Source of the DNA: Chloroflexota bacterium | GTDB taxonomy: Bacteria; Chloroflexota; JAJPGV01 | Direction of reading: 5' to 3' | Length of the DNA: 64,000 nucleotides | Assembly (NCBI GenBank): GCA_021325635.1 | Contig: JAJPGV010000039.1 | Location: 1-64,000 of the forward strand | In this document: positions 21,031-26,623 of the stretch, one piece after another | How the letters are laid out: each line of letters starts with the position of its first letter | Numbering within the stretch: position 1 is the stretch's first letter | Made by a program: the position numbers and the translations under genes | The notes under the pieces: generated by a model | Seen by the model: only the letters and a program-made list of their open reading frames with translations | What the model was told of the DNA's origin: nothing | Databases searched by the model: none

Positions 21031-21378
21031 TCAGATCGATGACGATGCAATCGATTCCCGGCGGAGTTGCTTAAGGCGAGCCTCGTACAGGTCGACCTCG
21101 GCTTGCATGTTCAGCCAGAACTGAGGCGTTGTGCCGAACAACCTGGCCAGCCGCAATGCTGTATCTGCTGTTACTCCACGCCTCGCGTTCACTAGCTCGT
21201 TCATGCGCACGATCGGAATACTCATGCGCTGCGCCGCCTCCGTCTGCGTCAGCCCCATTGGCTTCAGGAATTCTTCGAGCAGTACCTCGCCCGGATGCAC
21301 AGGTGGCTGCACCGGAAAGTCATCGCCTCGGGGAATGGTCGCTTGTTCCCCAACCTTACGTTCAGTGATAGTCCTCAC
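21031..21378 (-). CDS. higA: HigA-type antitoxin (XRE-family HTH)
   Basis: The antitoxin and autorepressor of a HigBA module. The core VHPGEVLLEEFLKPMGL and the helix-turn-helix TQTEAAQRMSIPIVRMNELV are classic HigA, followed by TADTALRLARLFGTTPQFWL and a C-terminal LYEARLKQLRR-type helix. GTG 21378 (115 residues) is chosen because it overlaps the end of the toxin gene by 17 bases and has GGGAGG just upstream. A longer ORF reading through the toxin would add an unrelated N-terminus. The toxin-first order is typical of higBA. Confidence 0.9.
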   Translation of the reverse strand: MRTITERKVGEQATIPRGDDFPVQPPVHPGEVLLEEFLKPMGLTQTEAAQRMSIPIVRMNELVNARRGVTADTALRLARLFGTTPQFWLNMQAEVDLYEARLKQLRRESIASSSI

Positions 21379-21652
21379 ATCGCACCTCCCGCGCGTTACT
21401 GCCCTTGAATTGAAAGGTGATCCTGTACTGGTCGTTGACCCGGATGCTCCAACTCCCCTGTCGCTCGCCCTTGAGAGTCTCGAGACGATTCCCCGGAGGT
21501 GCGCGGAGGTCACGCATGGTCGCTGCAGCGTTGATCATCGTCAGTTTCCTTCGTATTACTGGCCACAGCGCCCGCGGCAATCGCCTCGCATCCTTTGTGT
21601 CGCGAGCGAAGAAGACATCGCGGGTTACTTCGTCTCCGAAGCTCTCGATCAC
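21362..21652 (-). CDS. higB: HigB-type toxin (RelE superfamily ribosome-dependent RNase)
   Basis: A 96-residue toxin expected to cleave translated mRNA on the ribosome. Family blocks are the N-terminal MIESFGDEVTRDVF, AATMRDLRAPPGNRLETLKG, then GSWSIRVNDQYRITFQF and the terminal CEDYH. This matches HigB, whose members end in a YEDYH-like motif. It is first in the operon, followed by HigA with a 17-base overlap. The locus is flanked upstream by AT-rich DNA with a palindrome, unlike its GC-rich surroundings, which suggests horizontal acquisition. Confidence 0.92.
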   Translation of the reverse strand: MIESFGDEVTRDVFFARDTKDARRLPRALWPVIRRKLTMINAAATMRDLRAPPGNRLETLKGERQGSWSIRVNDQYRITFQFKGSNAREVRCEDYH

Positions 21653-23446: not shown

Positions 23447-25870
23447 GTGAAGAGCGCCCTAAGTGAGCCCTCAGACCGGCTGCTAGATTGTACGCGGGAA
23501 TCCTGTTTGATCGTCGTGCTCTTGAAGTTCGTGCATTCGCACCAGCGGCTGTTGGCGATGGTGGCCGTAACTCTGTTTGCGATTGGCGTACGAGTTTGGC
23601 AAATCGACCTGGCGCCTTTCGACCTCGATCAAACCGCCATCCTCCAAACGGCCGCCGACGCGCTCGATCAGCACAGGCTTCCCCTGTACACCGGCGCCCC
23701 GCTGACCATCGGTGCCCGGCAACCGCCGCTTCTGGCACTCATCCTGGCCATCCCATCAGGCGTTTCTCACAACCCTGCTCTCTTTGCCGCCTTGCAGGCG
23801 TCGCTCGATGCGATAGGGGCTGGGTTCATCTTCCTCCTGGCGTTGGAATTCCGCGGCGCCATGGCTGCTGCGGCATCGGCAGGTTTACTCTACGCGACTG
23901 CGCCAGCAGCTATTGTGTACAGCCGCAAACTGTGGAATCCGGATTTCGTGCCCTGCTTGTGCGCTGTGGGACTCTGGGGCACAGCTCGGTTCCTGCGGCG
24001 TGGCGAGTCGAGAGCCTTGGCCGTCGCGGCCTTGGCCTTTGCCGTGGCCGCGGAGCTCCACCCAACCTCAGCCGTGCTGTTACTTACAGTCGTCATCGCA
24101 GCGGTCCTTCGTTGGCGAGACGTACGCTGGCGCCCGCTGGCCAGCGCTGCGGTCATTGTCGGCCTCACGCTCGCGCCATACGTCTATCTTCAAACCCAAT
24201 CTGGCTGGAGCGACGTCTTGGCGGTGCTGCACACTTCCGGAACGCCCCGGCAATTCAATATCGAAGCCGTGCCGACAGCGCTCCTTCTGATCGGTGGACG
24301 ATTCCAGGACATAGTCGAAGCGGAATTTCAGCTCTACAACCTGCAACCTCTGGGCTCGCTCATCGGCCAGGGCTCATTTGGGACAAGCGGCGCAGCTATT
24401 AACGTCGCTCAGGAGCCGCTGCTGTGGCTCGTCCTAGCGTTGACGCTGCTTGGGATAGGCCTGGCAGTGATGAAGGTGCGCAGCGGCTGGCTGCTTCCAC
24501 TCGTTCTCGCGCTGCCCATTGCTGGCGTGATTGCCTCCGGACAGTTCGTGCAACCGCACTACCTGCTCGCCTTGCTGCCCCCGGCGATGGCGCTGGCAGG
24601 CATAGGACTAGCTGCCGTTCGACCTCGTGCCCTAGGACTCAGCCTGCTGACCATAGTTATCGTCTGGCGCTTGGTGGACTACGCGGCCTTCCAGGCCAAC
24701 GTTGCACAGGTCAAAGTACCGGGCACGTACGGCATCCCGATGCGCTACTCGATTCAGGCAGCTGACCTCGCCACACACATGGAGCCCACTGGGCCCCTGC
24801 TGATCGCCCGCACCGAGCCAAACAGCGCCATCTTCCGCTACCTCAGTGGCGGTCACATCCCTGTTCAAGCCTTCAACAGCCAGGCCGCGCTGGTGATTCC
24901 TCCTGGGGGAGGCGTGTACGTTGCGCAGGGCAGCGGCAGGGCCCAGGAGGCCCTTACCTCCCTGTATGGCCCACCCACGGCGTCCGTCAGCGATCCTTCT
25001 GGCGCTGTGGTTTACGCGGTGTACCATCTTTCGTCCGACGATTCCCTGCGGCTAGCACGTTCTTCAGCTCTCCAGCCCCTACACGCTGACGTGGGCAACG
25101 CCGTGCAGTTCACGGGCTATAGAGCAGAGGGTTTCGTGGCGGGAAGGCCTTCCACAGCCATTTTGGCTTGGCGCGTCCTGGCAAATCCGTCTCCGGCTCA
25201 ACCCGGTGTGCGCATGTTTGCACATCTGCTCGATCGATCGGGCAGCGTCGTTTCCACTGACCCGGACGTGGAGGCTTTCCCACGACAAAGTTGGCAAGCT
25301 GGCGACACAGTTCTTTCGTGGTTCGATCTGAATCCGCCCATGCAGATTCCGACCGGAGGCTATTGGCTGGAGACGGGCTTTTACGAAGCATCGTCGGGTC
25401 AGCGGCTCACCTTGCGCGACGGCGATCGTGAGATGGGATCGGCCCTCCGCATGGGACCATTCCGCCTAACCGGTGGGACAACTCCGCCGCCACTCCCAAC
25501 CGCGATATTCGGTAGCGACGAAATTGCCCTCGCGGGGATCCGTACCAACGGCCCGCAAGTAATCCTCACCTGGACCGCGCTGGGCAATCCTCGCTCCGGC
25601 TACACCGTCTTCGTCCATGCGTTGGATGATCACGGTCAGGTAGTGGGACAGCATGACGGTCCACCGGTTGATGGCAGCTTTCCGACAGATCTTTGGCAAA
25701 AGGGAGACGTGGTCGAGGACACCCATATCCTTACCGGGACGATCAGTTCCGCCACCCAACTGGAGATCGGTCTCTATACGCCCGGCGATCTGCGCCGGCT
25801 GCCCGCCAAGGATACGGCTGGCGCGTCCATGGGAGACCGGTGGTTGGTTCCTCTCCCCCTTAGCCACTAG
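23447..25870 (+). CDS. GT-C fold membrane glycosyltransferase (GT39/PMT-ArnT-like)
   Basis: An 807-residue protein with a polytopic N-terminal half of about 11-12 hydrophobic helices and a soluble C-terminal half rich in beta-strand. After the first TM, the loop LAPFDLDQTAILQTA carries the acidic D-x-D catalytic loop typical of GT-C enzymes, which use polyprenyl-phosphate sugar donors outside the membrane. The soluble part repeats a jelly-roll-like pattern (VRMFAHLLDRSGSVV, YTVFVHALDDHGQVV), perhaps two carbohydrate-binding modules. The start is GTG 23447. It follows the channel gene by 35 bases. Confidence 0.75.
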   Translation: MKSALSEPSDRLLDCTRESCLIVVLLKFVHSHQRLLAMVAVTLFAIGVRVWQIDLAPFDLDQTAILQTAADALDQHRLPLYTGAPLTIGARQPPLLALILAIPSGVSHNPALFAALQASLDAIGAGFIFLLALEFRGAMAAAASAGLLYATAPAAIVYSRKLWNPDFVPCLCAVGLWGTARFLRRGESRALAVAALAFAVAAELHPTSAVLLLTVVIAAVLRWRDVRWRPLASAAVIVGLTLAPYVYLQTQSGWSDVLAVLHTSGTPRQFNIEAVPTALLLIGGRFQDIVEAEFQLYNLQPLGSLIGQGSFGTSGAAINVAQEPLLWLVLALTLLGIGLAVMKVRSGWLLPLVLALPIAGVIASGQFVQPHYLLALLPPAMALAGIGLAAVRPRALGLSLLTIVIVWRLVDYAAFQANVAQVKVPGTYGIPMRYSIQAADLATHMEPTGPLLIARTEPNSAIFRYLSGGHIPVQAFNSQAALVIPPGGGVYVAQGSGRAQEALTSLYGPPTASVSDPSGAVVYAVYHLSSDDSLRLARSSALQPLHADVGNAVQFTGYRAEGFVAGRPSTAILAWRVLANPSPAQPGVRMFAHLLDRSGSVVSTDPDVEAFPRQSWQAGDTVLSWFDLNPPMQIPTGGYWLETGFYEASSGQRLTLRDGDREMGSALRMGPFRLTGGTTPPPLPTAIFGSDEIALAGIRTNGPQVILTWTALGNPRSGYTVFVHALDDHGQVVGQHDGPPVDGSFPTDLWQKGDVVEDTHILTGTISSATQLEIGLYTPGDLRRLPAKDTAGASMGDRWLVPLPLSH

Positions 25871-26036: not shown

Positions 26037-26339
26037 CTAAAGAAGCTTCCCCGTTCCCCGGCTTTCTACGGCTTGCAACCAGCGCTTGGCAGCTACCAGG
26101 CAGTCCTGGCAGATGTACGTGGTGCTGCTCTCGGGACCGGCGCAAACCTGGCGACCGGGGCGGGCGGCCCGCAGACAGAAGGAGCATTGCGCGCCGTCCA
26201 CCGCCTGCGCCTCCTCCGATAGACGATCGACACAGGCGTCGCAGATGCGGGCCGCACCCGGATCGCGCCGGCCGTACTGCCGATCCAGGGGCTTGTCGTT
26301 ACGGCAGAAGCCGCAGCGGGCGACATCCGATGGTGTCAT
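26037..26339 (-). CDS. miniprotein with tandem ClpX-type C4 zinc fingers
   Basis: A 100-residue protein made almost entirely of two zf-C4_ClpX-like modules. The first is C9-x2-C12 ... C33-x2-C36, the second C52-x2-C55 ... C77-x2-C80. Spacing and surrounding residues (CGFCRNDKP, ICDACVDR, CSFCLRA, YICQDCLV) resemble the N-terminal zinc domain of ClpX, which binds substrates and adaptors. There is no AAA+ domain. ATG 26339 gives a protein starting just before the first finger. It may be a free-standing adaptor or decoy for Clp protease; that is inference. Confidence 0.75.
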   Translation of the reverse strand: MTPSDVARCGFCRNDKPLDRQYGRRDPGAARICDACVDRLSEEAQAVDGAQCSFCLRAARPGRQVCAGPESSTTYICQDCLVAAKRWLQAVESRGTGKLL

Positions 26340-26623
26340 GCTCGGCCGAGTCGCAACTTCGAGGCCCACGAGAACGTACCGGCGTGCAGCGGGCATTTCC
26401 GAGCCATGGCCCGGCAGGCAACACTTCATCGCCCGCTCACATCGCAAAAGCATGCGCACTCCGTTGCATCGGGCCCGTACGACGTGAGTACGAGTCGCCT
26501 GCCTCAGCCGCTCGCGGCCCACCCGCGGGCACGAAACCTGCTTCCGTGGAGGCCCATGCAGCGCGCGGCCCGCCACCACATCGACGTGCTGCTGCCGGCC
26601 GTGCTCCGAGAACTCGTCGTCGC

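Follow-up and report, generated by a model that had tools for sequence, protein, structure and literature searches.

A free-standing protein made of two ClpX-type zinc fingers, with no ATPase behind them, is encoded on the reverse strand of a contig from a Chloroflexota bacterium (JAJPGV010000039.1). The first 64,000 nucleotides of this contig were analysed and are referred to here as the window. The domain arrangement of the protein is real and unusual. The tandem architecture of ClpX-type fingers is not unique to the window gene, as it was found elsewhere in both free-standing and fused form. The protein is tentatively read as a motor-less mimic of the ClpX N-domain, which in soluble form may serve ClpXP as a co-adaptor or act as its decoy, and perhaps folds as a single-chain pseudo-dimer.

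The ORF and its parts are listed in Table 1. The product is arginine-rich and contains little besides its two C4 modules, the cysteines of which are spaced as C9-x2-C12 ... C33-x2-C36 and then C52-x2-C55 ... C77-x2-C80. Only 20 residues remain between the last cysteine and the end of the 100-residue frame. An in-frame GTG start at position 26579 is possible and would produce a protein of 180 residues. The additional stretch is judged to be probably untranslated, since it holds no finger and its codon score is lower.

Table 1. Features of the tandem zinc-finger ORF in the window.
Feature	Position	Strand	Basis or remark
Free-standing tandem ClpX-type zinc-finger protein, 100 aa + stop	26037..26339	-	ATG to TGA
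Module 1, probable degenerate zf-C4_ClpX, residues 8-45 (C9, C12, C33, C36)	26205..26318	-	14.7 bits alone
Short linker, residues 46-50	26190..26204	-	Sequence
Module 2, zf-C4_ClpX, residues 51-87 (C52, C55, C77, C80)	26079..26189	-	27.8 bits alone
End of C-terminal helix and tail, residues 88-100, without known motif	26040..26078	-	
Possible in-frame upstream extension from GTG	26340..26579	-	Without zinc-finger similarity, low codon score

The gene stands alone on the strand opposite to both of its neighbours, and no clp genes lie near it. The neighbour on the 5′-coordinate side, at 23447-25870 (+), is presumably a large membrane-protein gene, and the frame that starts from about 26624 (+) on the other side is taken to be an NDH-2-like oxidoreductase. 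A separate ORF in the window, at 21031-21513 (-), presumably encodes a HigA-type antitoxin or HTH protein, a resemblance judged by eye.

The codon evidence for the ORF as a gene is weak. Its synonymous codon usage (0.018) is the highest among the six frames and falls in a zone of overlap, with 13% of 97 real-gene windows of 100 codons scoring lower and 6% of 485 off-frame windows scoring higher. When the amino-acid make-up is included, just 1% of the real windows score lower, a result probably due in part to the Cys/Arg-rich composition of the protein. Neither a sigma-70-type promoter nor a terminator was detected for the ORF, a negative of little weight in an organism of this kind. The eight zinc-ligand cysteines are intact across the two modules, with no frameshift or stop.

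The family of the modules was assigned by profile searches. The whole protein matches zf-C4_ClpX (PF06689) of Pfam at 33.4 bits (E 4.3e-8; cut-off 27), and no other Pfam family scores above its own cut-off. The strength of the assignment differs between the two modules because of their separate Pfam scores. Module 2 alone lies over the 27-bit cut-off (27.8 bits, E 2.3e-6) and is firmly a ClpX-type zinc finger. Module 1 alone lies under it (14.7 bits, E 0.029), with zf-C4_ClpX as its sole Pfam match at E up to 1, and is likely, not proven, to be a degenerate finger of the ClpX type. There is no Pfam match to an AAA domain in the 100 residues, where the AAA+ ATPase of ClpX would follow the finger. 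The only NCBIfam matches are two ClpX models, which score 21.8 and 15.9 bits against cut-offs of 359 and 370.75, far under them because the ATPase is missing. The preliminary description, in which two C4 modules resembling the N-domain of ClpX stand without an ATPase, is thereby upheld, with the qualification that module 1 is degenerate and only likely to be of this type. Gin (PF10764) was not among the Pfam matches up to E 10, a range in which the HMMER filters drop most weak matches, and the UVR domain gave no Pfam match up to E 10 in the protein. In the profile searches no RNA-binding, DNA-binding or other zinc family scored above its cut-off.

AlphaFold2 models the whole protein with a mean pLDDT of 74 and a pTM of 0.49. 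The alignment behind this two-module model had rows which covered module 2 only, and at this pTM the predicted arrangement leaves the pairing of the modules unsupported. The model of module 2 resembles the zinc-binding domain (ZBD) of ClpX, with a Foldseek probability of 0.94 against 2ds5 (E 0.37, TM by target 0.71) and a VIA-align Z of 5.0 (rmsd 2.8 Å, 43 residues aligned), the top match, tied with ClpX 9a5x. A 50-residue fragment holding module 1, modelled alone by AlphaFold2, is treble-clef-like (pLDDT 72). It matches ClpX ZBD entries at Foldseek probabilities of 0.47-0.63 and 2ds5 at a VIA-align Z of 3.8 (rmsd 3.0, 42 aligned), and the best match to PHD fingers (Z 4.7, rmsd 3.0, 50 aligned) is counted as a tie with the ClpX ZBD. 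Neither structure search passed E 0.001. Structure prediction suggests a ClpX likeness for module 2 and leaves module 1 between ClpX and PHD. For the whole protein no other C4 family gave a better match, an outcome that would have spoken against the original assignment; the structural tie concerns module 1 alone. The CsfB structure 5n7y was absent among the PDB matches listed, which carries no weight either way.

PF06689 was found at four places in the genome of the bacterium itself, including the window ORF. A normal ClpX is encoded away from the window in a frame of 436 residues, and a single free-standing finger of 76 residues lies on contig C12. The fourth place, on contig C59 (L003:1483-2031 (-)), encodes a protein of 182 residues in which a HicB-type region is followed by a C-terminal finger. 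The HicB match scores 24.9 bits against a cut-off of 21, and the region is HicB/ribbon-helix-helix-like.

No close ortholog of the window gene was found: 1 of 61 gave a match at E ≤ 0.001, and this was its own genome. A search of 400 genomes of the phylum gave matches in 56 at E ≤ 0.01, its own included, and the frames inspected from these matches were those fitting the finger motif. The best match outside its own genome is a ClpX frame of 458 residues (L036); many of the others are also ClpX frames, single-finger proteins of about 220 residues, or frames with stops, and for this reason no ortholog was counted among the 56. The one locus from a scan of genome contigs (L035) was rejected as a chance match, since it lies out of frame inside an open frame of 538 residues. 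Among viral contigs, a pattern matched 15 stretches, and none codes for a relative of the query. A tblastn search against plasmids and phages returned no close relative.

The tandem arrangement itself does recur. A DNA pattern for tandem ClpX fingers is present in 3 of the 400 phylum genomes, and the same pattern reversed in 0 of 400. The three matches are the window gene, L085 (genome G243) and L086 (G278); a third double outside the window, L119 (G211), was found by family search. Free-standing doubles of about 100-125 residues are therefore known from three other genomes of the phylum. Read from the chosen starts and scored against zf-C4_ClpX, L085 has about 104 residues (94 bits), L086 about 99 (91 bits) and L119, which has a longer linker, about 112 (106 bits). 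The identity for L085 and L086 is 27%, no clp genes were seen near either, and the neighbourhoods of the two differ. A weakly supported tree of 38 modules, computed on about 39 columns, places the first modules of L085, L086 and L119 loosely together; the two modules of the window protein are not clearly placed with those of the other doubles. As the window modules stay apart in this weak tree, the doubles may have arisen separately.

Fingers of this type also occur fused to other domains. In L065:1927-3003 (-) a pair of Clp_N domains precedes a pair of ClpX fingers, without an ATPase, and L076:2079-3830 (+) encodes three ClpX fingers ahead of a long TPR region. Two genomes (L122:418-2160 (-) and L123:412-1821 (-)) encode an aspartate/ornithine carbamoyltransferase with tandem fingers at its N-terminus. 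L120 encodes two fingers and a DUF4177-like tail (below cut-off), and in a viral contig (L118:5123-6787 (+)) tandem fingers precede a P-loop ATPase region that scores under the cut-offs of its families. Separately, L072 seemingly has one finger ahead of a Clp_N-like stretch, which is presumed to be Clp_N from its motif.

Single fingers are found next to clpX itself in two bacterial families of the phylum. In 22 of the 23 genomes examined of family f18, a second finger lies, by spacing, on the strand of the clpX finger and about 180-215 bases upstream of it; the remaining genome, which is 84% complete, has no PF06689 match whatever. Four of these loci (L066, L067, L148 and L149) were read directly and have the order clpP - finger ORF - clpX. 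In L067 only a few bases separate the three. Further upstream, L066 and L067 both carry what is presumably a tig-like sequence. In family f43, a diverged finger ORF lies directly upstream of clpX in all 10 loci examined (L134 and L139-L147), with clpP upstream of the finger in nine of the ten; the contig of L140 ends there. This count covers 10 of 12 listed genomes, leaving out G274 and G238, the latter without any match. The order clpP-finger-clpX was not seen in the loci examined from families f15 (L150), f5 (L151, L153) and f52 (L152). The order shared by f18 and f43 suggests a link of their single-finger relatives to Clp, and it makes a good circumstantial case that free-standing fingers of the ClpX type can be part of the ClpXP system. 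This evidence concerns the single-finger relatives and not the window gene.

A scan of viral contigs with the single-finger alignment gave 29 loci, in a collection which may include host DNA. Six of these are long ClpX-like frames. The other 23 (L092, L094-L098, L100-L116) are short one-finger frames of 60-166 residues, some nearly identical to one another.

The proposed function starts from what the ClpX ZBD is able to do. In one study, the ZBDs of ClpX are described as dimerising and docking adaptors, and the isolated ZBD, supplied in trans, as inhibiting the RssB-mediated turnover of sigmaS by ClpXP in vitro (PMC7226468). As a pair, the ZBDs of ClpX make up the site at which adaptors and some substrates dock. 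Since one chain of the window protein holds two ZBD-type modules joined by a short linker, it could take the form of a single-chain pseudo-dimer. It would most likely bind the partners of the ClpX ZBD, whether adaptor tails, substrates or the ClpX ZBDs themselves. Lacking the ATPase, it would either keep these partners off ClpXP, as a decoy or anti-adaptor, or bridge them as a co-adaptor. For the window copy, we infer that the modules pair, which partners they bind and that the protein acts as a decoy or adaptor. The initial suggestion of a Clp adaptor or a competitor of ClpX is plausible by analogy, because fingers lie between clpP and clpX in the single-finger families and because the isolated ZBD inhibits adaptor-mediated degradation.

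The fingers might instead form a protein-interaction module with a target outside Clp, for example as a sigma-factor inhibitor similar to CsfB (Gin), a reading considered unlikely. CsfB of B. subtilis is a small treble-clef zinc dimer which resembles the ClpX N-domain and is reported to act as an anti-sigma factor, so that a stand-alone dimer of this fold is able to do so (PMC5890618). The authors of that study doubt a common ancestry with ClpX, and the absence of Gin from the Pfam matches counts against such an inhibitor here. A target outside Clp would also agree with zf-C4_ClpX as an accessory domain in cyanobacterial sigma factors, as stated in another report (PMC11119718), and with the fusions of the finger to carbamoyltransferase, TPR, HicB and AAA regions in this survey. 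The clpP-finger-clpX clusters point the other way, as they indicate Clp for the single-finger relatives. The soluble ZBD mimic is favoured from the precedents of ZBD docking and inhibition, of CsfB and of the sigma-factor accessory domain taken together.

It is distinctly unlikely that the ORF is the relic of a gene for a ClpX-type finger, either in decay or no longer expressed. The weak codon signal, the degenerate module 1, the lack of a detected sigma-70-type promoter and the lack of a close ortholog would all be expected of a relic. Against a relic, all eight ligand cysteines and an unbroken frame have been kept, despite the wide divergence of the modules from ClpX, and the same double architecture recurs in other genomes. 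Binding of RNA or DNA by the double finger is very improbable, although for the RNA-binding factor suggested in the preliminary description the analysis produced evidence neither way. Treble-clef fingers as a class are able to bind nucleic acids, and the arginine-rich sequence would suit this role; against it, RNA- and DNA-binding families all stayed under their cut-offs in the profile searches, and the domain closest in fold to module 2, the ClpX ZBD, serves to dock proteins. The reading as a ClpX N-domain mimic is accordingly retained as the most probable of these, at the tentative level given above.

The ClpX-finger domain family is already known, and the pattern across the family is more interesting than the window gene alone. 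Motor-less ClpX N-domains might constitute an undescribed class of ClpXP regulators, consisting of singles in clpP-clpX clusters, versions in viral contigs, fusions to enzymes and single-chain pseudo-dimers, a proposal that is itself doubtful. Within it, fusion to an enzyme such as carbamoyltransferase would recruit that enzyme to ClpXP or shield it from ClpXP. In the accessible text of the open-access literature searched, which leaves subscription papers mostly outside, no free-standing or tandem ClpX finger is described as a ClpXP regulator. If the fingers act in trans, bacteria would tune ClpXP through extra copies of its own receptor domain, which is not known to us in this role except as an in-vitro inhibitor (PMC7226468). 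The clpP-finger-clpX clusters make the idea of regulation in trans directly testable. The finger copies in viral contigs would suggest such tuning by phages as well.

Several known systems share features with the window protein. McsA, the zinc-binding partner of ClpC and McsB, is small, has its C4 zinc motifs in pairs, works with a Clp ATPase and carries a C-terminal UVR domain. Compared by these general features, the window protein is similar to McsA in its paired C4 motifs and differs in that the UVR domain is unmatched. CsfB differs from the window protein in having a single module, in belonging to the Gin family of Pfam, which is unmatched here, and in its sigma-factor targets. The ClpX ZBD (PF06689; PDB 1ovx, 2ds5-2ds8) shares the C4 finger, of putative treble-clef fold in the window protein, with its CSFC ... 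YICxxC motif, and the AGP motif is common to it and to module 2, the model of which resembles 2ds5. Unlike ClpX, the window protein has two modules per chain, a degenerate module 1, no AAA+ motor and no ClpP-binding part. The single stand-alone fingers (on C12, in L066 and L067, and in viral contigs) are likewise ClpX fingers without an ATPase; they have one module and, unlike the window gene, lie in a clpP-clpX cluster in two families. The free-standing doubles L085, L086 and L119 consist, like the window protein, of two ClpX-type fingers and nothing else, and their fingers are far nearer to those of ClpX (91-106 bits, versus 33 for the window protein).
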